Below, piece after piece: positions 1,171 to 49,162 of a DNA stretch of 64,000 nucleotides (positions within the stretch are counted from its first letter, which is position 1; each line of letters starts with the position of its first letter). Made by a program: the position numbers and the translations under genes. The notes beneath the pieces are model-generated. The model worked only from the letters and a program-made list of their open reading frames with translations. It ran no database searches and was not told where the DNA came from. Source of the stretch: Mariprofundus sp. (GTDB lineage Bacteria > Pseudomonadota > Zetaproteobacteria > Mariprofundales > Mariprofundaceae). The stretch spans positions 62,001 to 126,000 of the forward strand of contig JAJFLE010000037.1 in the NCBI GenBank assembly GCA_021772835.1, read 5' to 3'.

Positions 1171-1207
1171 CATTACTGCTCTACCTTAGCAGGGTGAGGT
1201 TGTGGAT

Positions 1208-1801
1208 ATGAGATATATGACTACCGGTGAAGCCGCCCGTTTATGTGGTGTTGGCATCAATACCGTTAAACGCTGGATTCAAAAGGGTGAACTAAAGAGG
1301 GTGATCACTCCGGGGGGACACTGGCGCATTCTCGAGCACGAATTCCAACAGTTTTTAAAGACTCACGACATGGAACCTCTGCAGCCCCGGCTCAAACCGC
1401 TGTATAAAGTATTGCTCATTGAAGATGATCAGGCCATGTGCTCGCTGATTGAGGGTGCCCTTGAACTGGCAGCTTTCGATATACAGTTTGATGTTGCCAA
1501 TGACGGTTACACCGGCCTGATGAAGTTGGGCGCCATGCAGCCGGATCTACTTATTCTTGACATTATGTTGCCCGAAATAAACGGGCTGGAGCTGATGCAG
1601 CGTATTCGCTCAAGTGATAGCTGCAGCAATCCACGCATACTAGTAATCACCGGTGCCGGTGACCGCCGGATAGTCAAACGTGCGCTGGAAAAAGCCGCAC
1701 CCGATGCACTTATTTTCAAACCATTCACAACCAAAATGTTGATCGATTGTATTGAGCAGCAGATGAATGCCGTCCCGTTGCACTCTCGATGCTCAATGTG
1801 A
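1208..1801 (+). CDS. Response regulator with N-terminal excisionase/MerR-type HTH and C-terminal receiver domain
   Basis: Residues 1-50 form a winged-helix DNA-binding module of the excisionase/MerR kind (MTTGEAARLCGVGINTVKRWI...TPGGHWRI). Residues about 66-190 form a CheY-like receiver with the acidic pair LLIEDDQ, phospho-acceptor D118 in LILDIMLPEINGLE, the conserved ITGAG threonine and the KPF lysine. Placing the HTH before the receiver reverses the usual output order. ATG 1208 is preferred over GTG 1202 because GAGG sits 8 bases upstream of it. The stop overlaps the next receiver gene by 13 bp, so both belong to the phosphorelay operon. It is the only DNA-binding protein of the cluster and the likely output. 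Confidence 0.85.
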   Translation: MRYMTTGEAARLCGVGINTVKRWIQKGELKRVITPGGHWRILEHEFQQFLKTHDMEPLQPRLKPLYKVLLIEDDQAMCSLIEGALELAAFDIQFDVANDGYTGLMKLGAMQPDLLILDIMLPEINGLELMQRIRSSDSCSNPRILVITGAGDRRIVKRALEKAAPDALIFKPFTTKMLIDCIEQQMNAVPLHSRCSM

Positions 1802-2187
1802 TGCAGGCAGCCTTCGACAAGACTGTCCTGATCATTGACGATGATGCAATTCTGGTCGAGCTGTTTGACGAGATTCTAAGCACTTCGTTCTCTACCAGGA
1901 CCGCCACCAATATCGTCGATGCCATAGCAATTCTGCAAAACATGCACATTAGTGCCGTCATCAGCGATTATCACCTCGGGACTCATGACGCTGATGTACT
2001 CATAAACTGGATCGCACAGAAAAAACCTGAGCTCATATCAAAGATTATTCTTTTGACCGGCGAAGCCGACGTAACATGCAATCATCAAGATGAAATCTCA
2101 TCTATTCTGTTCAAGCCTGTAGATTTCAACACACTAAAACTGACCGTCCATAGCCTGTTCGCTCAGCCGCAGGAGCTAAAGCCATGA
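1789..2187 (+). CDS. Stand-alone response regulator receiver protein
   Basis: A single receiver domain of 132 residues: acidic pocket VLIIDDDAIL, phospho-acceptor D60 in AVISDYHLG, threonine in ILLTGEAD and lysine in LFKPVDF. There is no output domain, so it probably shuttles phosphate or acts by protein contact. It overlaps the HTH-receiver gene by 13 bp and the following kinase by 4 bp (ATGA), which indicates translational coupling within one operon. Confidence 0.88.
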   Translation: MLNVMQAAFDKTVLIIDDDAILVELFDEILSTSFSTRTATNIVDAIAILQNMHISAVISDYHLGTHDADVLINWIAQKKPELISKIILLTGEADVTCNHQDEISSILFKPVDFNTLKLTVHSLFAQPQELKP

Positions 2188-3116
2188 AATACTGGAAAAA
2201 CAGGCTCGGAGTAAAGTTGGCCGTCACAATAACACTGATACTTATTCCTATGCTGCTGGCAAGTTTCCTCTGGTTTGAATACCGCGCTGAAACCATGGTT
2301 AAAAATGAGCAGGAGGTGCGCGGGGCTCAAGTCGCCGAATCACTTGTGGCAACCCTGAGCAGCATCATGTTATCCGGCAATGCCAATATCGCCCACTTTT
2401 GGCTCAAGCGTGTTGCTTCCGTGCCGGGCGTGGAGTCGGCAAAAATCTTTCGCACTGATGGCGTTGAGGCATTCCAGGACAGGGCAACACTGGATCAGGT
2501 CAACAGCTATATCGGCAAACAACAATTTGTTCGCGCGACTGTAGAGCAACCCGGAAAAATTTCGGCTGAACTGCTGGCACCTTTTAACATGGCCAGTAAA
2601 GGCAAAGCCAATATTCGCCACTCTAAAGACAACGAACACCTGAATTATATGTCCCCGATTCGTGCCGAAGGCGCTTGCATGGGTTGCCACGGTTACGACA
2701 GCAATCCGATCCGGGGTGTCCTGGTGCTCGGCCTTACCACCGGCTCATATCAGGTTACCGCTTCCGAAATCAAACGTGACATGATCAATGTCCTTATCCT
2801 TATTATCGCACTGTTCGGCCTCACCATCTGGCTGGTGGTACGCAGGAAGATTCTCATCCCGCTCGAAACAATCACAAAAGTTGCTGCAAATATCAGGCAG
2901 GGGGATCTCTCCAACAGCATTGAGCTGAACCGGGATGATGAGCTGGGATTGGTTGCCTCCACGTTTGATTTACTTGTGCATGATTTGAAGCAAAAAATAC
3001 TTCATGAGGCTGACCAGCGCAAATGCCAGGAAGCCATCACCGATGCCGTTATCTCTCTGGGCAGGGAAGCAGCCGGTGTTCCGCTGCTTAAACATATCGG
3101 TGAACTCAGTATGTAG
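2184..3116 (+). CDS. Upstream part of the kinase: TM - c-heme sensor (Tll0287-like) - TM - HAMP - start of GAF
   Basis: TM helix 1 spans about residues 9-30 and TM helix 2 about 201-219. Between them is a periplasmic domain carrying CMGCH at 165-169, a canonical covalent c-heme attachment motif, set in SPIRAEGACMGCHG as in Tll0287-like (DUF3365) sensors. HAMP (about 218-272) and the first helix of a GAF domain follow. Translated alone, this 310-residue product would be a heme-bearing membrane stub with no kinase. Heme attachment would need cytochrome c maturation; ccdA lies about 20 kb away in this window. Confidence 0.8.
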   Translation: MKYWKNRLGVKLAVTITLILIPMLLASFLWFEYRAETMVKNEQEVRGAQVAESLVATLSSIMLSGNANIAHFWLKRVASVPGVESAKIFRTDGVEAFQDRATLDQVNSYIGKQQFVRATVEQPGKISAELLAPFNMASKGKANIRHSKDNEHLNYMSPIRAEGACMGCHGYDSNPIRGVLVLGLTTGSYQVTASEIKRDMINVLILIIALFGLTIWLVVRRKILIPLETITKVAANIRQGDLSNSIELNRDDELGLVASTFDLLVHDLKQKILHEADQRKCQEAITDAVISLGREAAGVPLLKHIGELSM

Positions 3117-3332
3117 ATCACCGGCGCCCCTTATGCGGCGCTTTCCTATATCGAAAACGGCGAGAAAAAATTTATTTTCCAAGGTATTTCAGAAGAAAGT
3201 GAAGCAAACATTGCCCACTCCCCTGAAGGCAAAGGGCTGCTTGGTCTGATATGGGAAGAAGGTGAAACCGTCAGGGTAAACCGTATCGCAGATCACCCAA
3301 GATCCAGCGGGCTCCCGAGTGGACACCCACCC

Positions 3333-5693
3333 ATGGAAGCATTCCTCGGCACGCCCATACGCTTCGAAGAGCAGATAATGGGAATTATTTACCTCTCCAA
3401 AGACCCGGGCGAACCTCCGTTTACGATTGAAGATGAAAAGGCTCTGATCGTACTGGCTTCAGCCTGTGCTACCGCCCTGTCCAACACGCTGAATTTTGAA
3501 CGTGTCAAACAGGCCAACGCCGAGCTTGAAAGCAAAGTCGCCGAGCGCACGCATGAATTAAATCTAACCAACAGGCAGTTGAAAACGCGTGAAATTGAAC
3601 TGGAACTGATCAATGAAGAGCTGGTATCCGCCAACAGGGCAAAAGACCAGTTCCTTGCCAACACCAGTCATGAGCTGCGTACCCCGCTCAACGCCATTAT
3701 CGGCTTTTCCGAACTGCTTTCGGATGTGCGCGCGGGTGAACTGAGCGCCAAACAGCACCGCTATGTCGGACACGTCCACAACAGCGGCAAGCGACTGCTG
3801 ACGATTATCAATGACCTGCTTGATATCAGTAAAATTGAGGCCGGCATGATGGAAATTCATGAAACCTCATTCAATCCTGTCCAGTTCGGGCAGCAGGTCG
3901 CAGCAGAACTAACACCTCTGGCCAGAGCCAAAGACATAGAACTGAATCTCCTTACTCCGGCGGAGAAGAACCTGAACATTCAGGCGGATCGTGATAAACT
4001 GCATCAGGTTCTGGTGAACCTAATCGGCAACGCGATCAAGTTCACGCCGGATGGCGGCCATGTTGATGTGGAAATCGAACTGGAAGGAGATGTGCAGCAC
4101 GGAAGTGAATCAACACTCTCCTGCCACATTCAGGATAATGGCATCGGCATAGCGGCCGAAGATCAGGAAAAAATATTCCTGCCCTTTACGCAATCCAGCG
4201 GCGGACTGGATCGGGCACATGGCGGCACTGGCCTCGGCCTCTCGCTCGCCAAACGCATGGTCGAATTGCTTGGCGGCAGCATCACGCTGAAAAGCGAGCC
4301 CGCCACAGGCAGTACCTTTTCAATCACTCTGCCTGTTGTTGTAACCGAAGGCGACGTGGCTTTCGTGAACAACGCTGCAAACGCCCAGATGGTTTACCAG
4401 GGACAGTTCGAACATGCGCCGACCGAAGAGGTCATCCCGGACAGAGGCCCTCACCCCTTGATTATGATCGTTGATGAAAACAGACAGCGAGCAGCTAAAG
4501 CCGAGGAGATGTTCAGCTCTGAGGGATATCAGGTTATGCATTCGGACATCGCCAATGTGGAAGCTGCTGCATCCAGCACTTCCCCATTCCTGATCGTGTT
4601 AGGTATACTGGATAATACTGAATCCACCTATGACCGGATTCAACTCTTGAAACGCTCATCCACCACCAACAGAACACCCACCATTCTGATGAGCGGCGAT
4701 GCAGACACGCCCCGCTTCAGCACAGGCGGAACCATCAGTCAGATTGACAAAGGCATGCAGCGCAACGACCTGCTGGAAATGGTTTCTCATTACGGCAAGC
4801 ACATTGCACCTGTTCCATCGGCTCCATCTGTGCTGGTTGTCGATGACGATGCATCGGTGCGTGAATATCTGAAAGAAACGCTGGCCCCTGAGGGCTACCA
4901 CATCTTGCTGGCCAGCAACGGTGCGGAAGGTGTTCGCCTTGCCATTGAACGCGAACCCGACCTTATCATTCTCGACCTCATGATGCCCGGCATGACCGGC
5001 TTTGATGTGGTCGACAAATTAAGGGAGCACCCGAGTGCCTGCGATATCCCGGTGGTGATCTTTACCGCCAAAGACCTCACCCGTGAAGAGGCACTCATGC
5101 TCGGCCATGATGTCGAGCGTATCCTGATCAAGGGCCTGAGCAAGAAAGCCGATGTACTACATCAACTGCACAAGCTGGAGCTGCTCTATCCGCTGCAAGC
5201 CAAACTGGTCGATATCAAACTGGGCTGTTTCAATCAGCGTTATATGCAACGACGCCTCGACCATGAGATCGCCCGCTCGGTCAGGTACTCGCATAACTTT
5301 TCTCTCATCGCATGGGAAATGGACGGATACGACGGCTATTGTAAAGACCATGGTAAACGCTGGGGCCTTGCTGCGCTGAAAGCCACCGTATTGACAGTCC
5401 AGTCCATCATCCGCAGAGGCGATGTACTGGCCCGACTCGACGAGAGTAGTTTCGTCCTGCTCCTGCCCGGCATCTCGGTAGAAGAAGCCAGTCGTGTGGC
5501 CGAAAAAATTCGCCTGCGTATCAGCCATCAACGGCTGCCGTTGCCCGAAACTCAGGCTGGCAAGCTTACCGCCTCCATTGGCGGTATCGCATCAGGTGAA
5601 GGTCACGACACCAGTGAACTGATGGGCATACTGAAACAGAGGCTGGCTATTGCAATTGATGAAGGCGGCAACCGCACAGTCATGGAGGACTAA
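3333..5693 (+). CDS. Downstream part of the kinase: GAF - HisKA - HATPase - degenerate REC - REC - degenerate GGDEF
   Basis: The frame is actually open from 3117. ATG 3333 is merely the first ATG and has no ribosome site. From that ATG, HisKA has H113 in TSHELRTPLNAIIGF. HATPase shows N (LIGNAIKF), G1 (DNGIGI) and G2 (GGTGLGLSLAKR) boxes. The first receiver-like domain (HPLIMIVDENRQRA) has LIVLGILDN where the phospho-Asp should be, so it looks inactive. The second is canonical (VLVVDDDAS, LIILDLMMPGMTG). The last domain resembles GGDEF, but its active-site loop reads RLDESSFVLLLP instead of GGDEF, so cyclase activity is unlikely. Confidence 0.85.
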   Translation: MEAFLGTPIRFEEQIMGIIYLSKDPGEPPFTIEDEKALIVLASACATALSNTLNFERVKQANAELESKVAERTHELNLTNRQLKTREIELELINEELVSANRAKDQFLANTSHELRTPLNAIIGFSELLSDVRAGELSAKQHRYVGHVHNSGKRLLTIINDLLDISKIEAGMMEIHETSFNPVQFGQQVAAELTPLARAKDIELNLLTPAEKNLNIQADRDKLHQVLVNLIGNAIKFTPDGGHVDVEIELEGDVQHGSESTLSCHIQDNGIGIAAEDQEKIFLPFTQSSGGLDRAHGGTGLGLSLAKRMVELLGGSITLKSEPATGSTFSITLPVVVTEGDVAFVNNAANAQMVYQGQFEHAPTEEVIPDRGPHPLIMIVDENRQRAAKAEEMFSSEGYQVMHSDIANVEAAASSTSPFLIVLGILDNTESTYDRIQLLKRSSTTNRTPTILMSGDADTPRFSTGGTISQIDKGMQRNDLLEMVSHYGKHIAPVPSAPSVLVVDDDASVREYLKETLAPEGYHILLASNGAEGVRLAIEREPDLIILDLMMPGMTGFDVVDKLREHPSACDIPVVIFTAKDLTREEALMLGHDVERILIKGLSKKADVLHQLHKLELLYPLQAKLVDIKLGCFNQRYMQRRLDHEIARSVRYSHNFSLIAWEMDGYDGYCKDHGKRWGLAALKATVLTVQSIIRRGDVLARLDESSFVLLLPGISVEEASRVAEKIRLRISHQRLPLPETQAGKLTASIGGIASGEGHDTSELMGILKQRLAIAIDEGGNRTVMED

Positions 5694-6061
5694 TGAAGAG
5701 ACCTCATATTCTAATCGTAGACGATAATTTCCTGAACCTTGAACTGGCATGCGATGTGCTCGAACTCGAAGATTTTCATGTCACGCTGGTTGATAGTGGC
5801 GAGAAATCAATTGCCACAGCCCAGCAGGATCCGCCCGACCTGATTCTAATGGATCTACGCATGCCCGGCATGAGCGGCCTCGACGCTATGCGCGAATTGC
5901 GCAAATCACCTGTTACCCGTGATATTCCGGTGATTGTGTTAACCGCATCGGTGATGGCCGGGGAAGAAGACCGCCTGCTTGCCAAAGGCTTCGACGGTTT
6001 TATGCAAAAACCCATCTCACCGGCAAGCTTTGCTGATGAGGTAAGGGCTTATTTGAAGTAA
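5693..6061 (+). CDS. CheY/DivK-like single-domain response regulator
   Basis: A 122-residue receiver: ILIVDDNFLNLELA, phospho-acceptor D54 in LILMDLRMPGMSG, threonine in IVLTASVMAGEE, and lysine in FMQKPISP. This is the DivK-like flavour often paired with hybrid kinases. Its ATG overlaps the last base of the kinase stop (taATG), so it is co-translated with the kinase and is probably its diffusible phospho-acceptor. It ends the operon. A short hairpin, CGGCC-TTCC-GGCCG, follows without a T tract. Confidence 0.9.
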   Translation: MKRPHILIVDDNFLNLELACDVLELEDFHVTLVDSGEKSIATAQQDPPDLILMDLRMPGMSGLDAMRELRKSPVTRDIPVIVLTASVMAGEEDRLLAKGFDGFMQKPISPASFADEVRAYLK

Positions 6062-22647: not shown

Positions 22648-22688
22648 GAGATAACCTTATGTTTGTAGTGGAGCACCTGGAGAAAAGG

Positions 22689-22864
22689 GCACCCCCGCGT
22701 TGGCGTAAAGGCAAAAAGTCGTCGAACCCTCTAACAAGAGGTGGGCGCCGCACCTCGGCTTCAGGTATCTCCCTAAGGAGACGCTCACAGCCAAAGTAGG
22801 TAAGCTCCCATTCGACAAGTATCGGCTCAGGCAACATGATGCCGTTCGATCAACGCAGGGGCGC
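22689..22864 (-). ncRNA. ssrS: 6S RNA (RNA polymerase sigma-70 holoenzyme regulator)
   Basis: 6S RNA mimics an open promoter and sequesters the sigma-70 holoenzyme. The minus strand between zapA and the 5-FCL gene contains CCTGAGCCGATACTTG, nearly identical to the conserved 5' CCUGAGCCGAUAUUUC of 6S RNA. The ends form a 14-bp closing stem, GCGCCCCTGCGTTG with CAACGCGGGGGTGC, including two G-U pairs. That gives about 176 nt, the usual size. The 5' arm lies inside the last codons and stop of zapA. The 65-codon track ORF here is a shadow of the RNA. Exact ends are estimated. Confidence 0.9.
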
Positions 22865-48877: not shown

Positions 48878-49162
48878 TTAGAACTTGAATTCACCCTCAA
48901 CATTCTCCAATGACCCGGCTGATTCGAGCACATAAACAGTGATGCCTCGCTGCTTCAGGTAATCCTGATAGGCCAGCGCATGGGCATCATATTGTCCCTG
49001 CTTGGACCCCACTGAAAAGCTCAACATGTCAGGTGGTGCCGGATCGACAAACGGATAGGCCGCAGCAAAACCCAGCATTGCCAACAGCAGGGCGGGCAAG
49101 AATGTTTTAAGTTTATCACCGATCTTAGGCTGGAACTCTATGCATGCACTGAAAAAAAGCAT
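48878..49162 (-). pseudogene. Truncated N-terminal fragment of a TAXI/TRAP-type solute-binding protein
   Basis: A signal-anchor-like helix (LPALLLAMLGFAAAYPFVDPAPP) is followed by MLSFSVGSKQGQYDAHALAYQDYLKQRGITVYVLESAGSLENVEG, which resembles the first ligand-binding segment of TAXI/NMT1-like binding proteins (usually 300 or more residues). The ORF stops at 94 residues and trhP begins about 55 bp later, so most of the gene is missing. The family assignment is tentative. It may be a remnant or a repurposed short protein. Confidence 0.5.

Follow-up and report, generated by a model that had tools for sequence, protein, structure and literature searches.

A hybrid histidine kinase frame in a 64-kb stretch of Mariprofundus DNA (the window, analysed over its whole length) is broken by one in-frame amber codon, raising the question of whether the stop is a recent nonsense mutation, a sequence error or a codon that is read through to make two products. 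A first-pass annotation of this DNA offered all three, and the features concerned are as follows.

1202..1801, + strand: HTH_17/MerR-receiver response regulator, upstream in the cluster (Pfam; kept in the relatives' loci L002, L085 and L164)
1789..2187, + strand: single-domain receiver overlapping the kinase start (Pfam; kept in relatives)
2184..3113, + strand: N-terminal part of the kinase, 310 aa, with two predicted membrane helices, a periplasmic Tll0287-like/sCache_heme domain, HAMP and the start of GAF (Pfam, AlphaFold)
3114..3116, + strand: amber codon, kinase codon 311 (CAG in the nearest sister)
3117..5690, + strand: C-terminal part, 858 aa, with the GAF remainder, HisKA, HATPase_c, a receiver-like stretch, an intact receiver and a degenerate GGDEF (Pfam; co-linear with intact homologues)
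3333..3335, + strand: nearest in-frame ATG 3′ of the stop, at residue 384 within GAF (ribosome-binding site -3.0 kcal/mol, against -6.6 kcal/mol at the true start)
5691..5693, + strand: TAA terminator of the kinase frame (codon and final residues, MED, match those of the sister)
5693..6061, + strand: single-domain receiver immediately 3′ of the kinase (Pfam; kept in L002, L085 and L086)

Translation of 2184-5696 gave a kinase frame of 1169 codons (2184-5690, + strand) with TAG 3114-3116 as its sole interruption, the following 216 bases (3117-3332) being open as far as the ATG at 3333. When the 64-kb window was scanned for codon usage in six frames, with candidate stops defined by 60 open codons on either side, TAG 3114 ranked first of 58 candidates, indicating coding sequence on both flanks. 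The next-ranked stops inspected (26699, 11299, 60183, 51428, 48878 and 7254) were gene junctions or shadow frames, and TAG 3114 was the only intragenic stop that the scan and this inspection of the next-ranked candidates found in the window. The sister gene (L002:3914-7423, 1169 aa) aligns over its full length and is gap-free at the TAG site. Since the flanks are coding and the sister aligns end to end, the frame broken by TAG 3114 is a genuine interrupted gene in the assembly and not a pair of ORFs adjacent by chance. The stop falls 11 residues into the GAF domain, which spans residues 300-432 in the intact sister. The first-pass annotation had described a single amber codon inside the GAF domain of a 1169-codon kinase, with the same frame before and after it and the intervening 216 bases open, and each of these points was borne out.

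Elsewhere in the window, a 94-aa ORF at 48878-49162 (- strand) stops shortly before a U32 peptidase gene; it had no Pfam match and by eye looks like the beginning of a solute-binding protein, possibly a gene remnant. The sole Rfam match in the window was a 6S RNA (RF00013, 65.1 bits) at 22688-22864 (- strand).

Pfam and fold searches gave the architecture c-heme-Cache/HAMP/GAF/HisKA/HATPase/REC/degenerate-GGDEF, that of a hybrid kinase predicted to be a membrane protein, and the intact sister carries all Pfam domains of both window parts in a single chain. In the window kinase HAMP occupies residues 219-269 (Pfam E=1.3e-8), while the Tll0287-like match (PF11845) lies just below the cut-off of 24.1 (E=2e-4, score 22.2), that of the sister (25.8) lying above it. 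A CXXCH motif is present at residues 165-169, its residues invariant in 12 homologues, and the AlphaFold model of the N-terminal part, of moderate confidence (pLDDT 77, pTM 0.50), matched 3b47 and 3b42, which are c-heme sensor domains from GSU0582 and GSU0935. With CXXCH in a modelled Cache fold, the N-terminal part is assigned to the sCache_heme (Tll0287-like) sensors, heme attachment being predicted. The original label of the kinase as heme-sensing needs correction: Pfam and the fold search point to a c-type-heme Cache sensor that uses heme, and nothing indicates that heme itself is sensed. The c-heme Cache family has been described as sCache_heme, and its HAMP-linked member lacking the axial cysteine binds NO (PMC12889525). 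The window sensor domain likewise lacks an axial cysteine, having no cysteine besides the CXXCH pair, and by analogy with that member a role in gas (NO) sensing is likely. In its invariant CXXCH, 3b47/3b42 fold, membrane helices, HAMP and HisKA/HATPase fusion the window kinase resembles the sCache_heme/Tll0287-like (PF11845) histidine kinases (PMC12889525), but it differs from them in the addition of GAF, receivers and a degenerate GGDEF and in the interruption of the copy. RLDES stands where the GGDEF motif would be, and in neither the window nor the sister does the first receiver-like stretch have a Pfam match, such that both modules are probably degenerate.

The cluster order of MerR/HTH-receiver, receiver, kinase and receiver is kept in relatives. 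Kinase homologues without the membrane c-heme sensor, starting just before GAF, are found in G015 (L086/L166), G021 (L085/L165) and G090 (L180), with those of G015 and G021 occupying the same regulator cluster. Given this shared location, the c-heme sensor is, on these comparisons, a module gained or lost among the kinase homologues. The apparently shorter homologues of G033 and G069 extend up to, or close to, the ends of their contigs and are left out of this sensor-less group.

The kinase was present in 15 of the 74 family genomes (E<=1e-150) in a comparison set holding one genome per species, the relatives thus being sister species, and an internal stop occurred in the window copy and in none of the 14 others. 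A TAA within the G038 match was taken to be a shorter C-terminus, with the frame reaching to about 10 residues from the usual end. The nearest relative (L002/G017, a Zetaproteobacteria bin) has an intact kinase of 1169 aa, identity being 83% downstream of the stop and 72% upstream. At the stop column this sister has CAG and the other homologues encode E, Q, K, A, D or N; the in-frame stop is missing from all aligned orthologues, with a sense codon in every relative. The comparison of orthologues proposed at the outset therefore finds TAG to be unique to the window genome among those compared, and on the alignment the lesion is a single C-to-T transition (CAG to TAG) at a variable, tolerant column. 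With 61 single-transition changes to a stop available in the kinase frame, one nonsense mutation is unsurprising. The patchy presence of the gene suggests that the kinase is dispensable in the family.

Downstream of the stop there are no indels and no further stops relative to the sister, and pairwise dN/dS between window and sister is 0.13. When polarised by G030, the window lineage shows 31 replacements after the stop and the sister lineage 37; the downstream frame is under purifying selection with no replacement excess over the sister branch. Neither relaxed selection nor secondary lesions were detected after the stop, in keeping with the initial impression that everything else looks intact. 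If the stop inactivates the gene, the neutral phase is confined to about the last 6% of the branch (95% bound), a rough figure that assumes neutrality after the stop and rests on one outgroup (G030). These comparisons exclude an old pseudogene but not a young one, in which decay would not yet be expected. With no decay downstream, the alignment leaves three readings of the lesion: a very recent origin, an artefact, or a stop that does not inactivate the gene. The clear decay in sister strains that had been named as the mark of a plain pseudogene was not seen, the sister species being intact. In the HAMP-and-linker region that leads up to the stop (2841-3113) there are 15 lineage-specific replacements against 3 in the sister, an excess (p about 0.008) in one of several regions tested that is not shared by the downstream part.

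The explanation that fits best, and which we consider probable, is that a hybrid kinase intact in all other respects has very recently acquired a nonsense mutation, which is either fixed in the lineage or present in a strain variant that the assembly captured. The recent nonsense mutation first put forward is supported by the CAG of the sister, the single transition, the restriction of the stop to the window genome and the lack of further decay. CAG would have changed to TAG by one transition, fixed or segregating, and ribosomes would normally terminate there to leave a 310-aa membrane c-heme/HAMP stub without a kinase. The phosphorelay into the neighbouring receivers would then be off, save for trace natural read-through, and the loss of the kinase would be tolerated, the gene being apparently dispensable in a family where only 15 of 74 genomes carry it. 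As a counterpoint, the C-terminal part, intact over 858 codons, would equally fit a sequence error or use of the frame by read-through.

Ranking next is a base error in the consensus or assembly, or a minority-strain base from a mixed population in which the main allele is intact, although this seems rather unlikely. The gene is without decay anywhere else, the assembly is fragmented into 87 contigs and the site is one transition from the sister codon, all of which would suit such an error, but the 64 kb yielded a single intragenic stop and no stop lies inside any of 59 HATPase_c domain matches genome-wide, so that the assembly does not look error-rich. Consensus base-substitution errors are also probably rarer than real nonsense alleles. 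Functional read-through, in which TAG is decoded at useful levels to give the stub and the full-length kinase in a set ratio, draws on the intact downstream frame and its purifying selection, and an inserted glutamine would restore the residue of the sister. In E. coli reporters some premature stops leak, up to percent levels and less at TAG than at TGA, with leakage favoured by G after the stop and opposed by T and glutamine often inserted (PMC11126739). Trace leakage at TAG 3114 is by analogy plausible. Against read-through at useful levels, family searches found the RF1 gene (prfA) present (519 bits, no stop inside) and no CUA anticodon among 40 tRNA hits, in a genome 92.7% complete in 87 contigs in which several expected isoacceptors were unseen; a suppressor tRNA could lie in the missing part. 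The weak fortieth hit, not called by ARAGORN, looks by eye like a tRNA-Val-like remnant with a GAC anticodon. This remnant (G000:C75:2908-2973, L160) lies close to a contig end and might mark an integration site. RNA folding over the first 80-100 nt past the stop is unremarkable (z = 0.41 and -1.21), and no stimulatory 3′ context was seen, the base after TAG being A and not the G favoured in the reporters (PMC11126739). The stop is conserved in no relative, so the pairing of a conserved stop with a conserved downstream frame expected of programmed read-through was not found. The suggestion of programmed or suppressed read-through has thus gained no positive support; programmed read-through is unsupported and functional read-through appears very improbable.

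A stop maintained as a switch, whereby conditional read-through or separate initiation would let the stub modulate a reduced pool of kinase, either full-length or soluble, is given a slimmer chance again. A functional split, in which the 310-aa stub would serve as a membrane heme protein of its own and a soluble kinase would be made from ATG 3333 or by re-initiation, has precedents in the natural sensor-less soluble homologues of G015, G021 and G090 and in the stand-alone sCache_heme proteins, which are common (PMC12889525). However, these natural soluble homologues begin upstream of GAF and retain all of it, whereas a start at ATG 3333 would cut the domain, and that ATG has a weak ribosome-binding site and lies 216 bases beyond the stop, making a split very unlikely. 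Genome-wide reassignment of TAG in the lineage would explain an open frame continuing past one TAG and merits almost no credence, being already contradicted by the intact RF1 gene and by TAG-terminated genes. Neither loss of RF1 nor avoidance of TAG as a terminator was seen, with several long window ORFs and a cluster gene of the sister ending in TAG, and the 40 tRNA hits held no CUA anticodon by which TAG might be decoded.

The young nonsense allele would place the window lesion among the ordinary bacterial nonsense pseudogenes and strain-level alleles, which it resembles in its single premature stop one transition from the sister codon and in a gene missing from many relatives and intact in close ones. 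It differs from ordinary nonsense pseudogenes in lacking secondary decay, which puts it at their very youngest end. A literature search for a comparable case in Zetaproteobacteria returned nothing. So-called pseudo-pseudogenes (Feng et al. 2022, as cited in PMC11078800), interrupted genes that reportedly may still yield low amounts of protein, are alike in the interruption; for the window copy such a yield would be hypothetical. Were read-through real, the gene would be an uncommon case of a chromosomal sensor kinase with two products, but this is not the reading that the evidence favours. Comparison with a sister allows a single in-frame stop in a conserved kinase to be dated, and here intact relatives, a one-transition change and the lack of decay would together indicate a lesion of roughly within-species age. 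The occurrence of a zetaproteobacterial kinase with and without its c-heme membrane sensor in one type of cluster may be of modest use in work on modular sensing.
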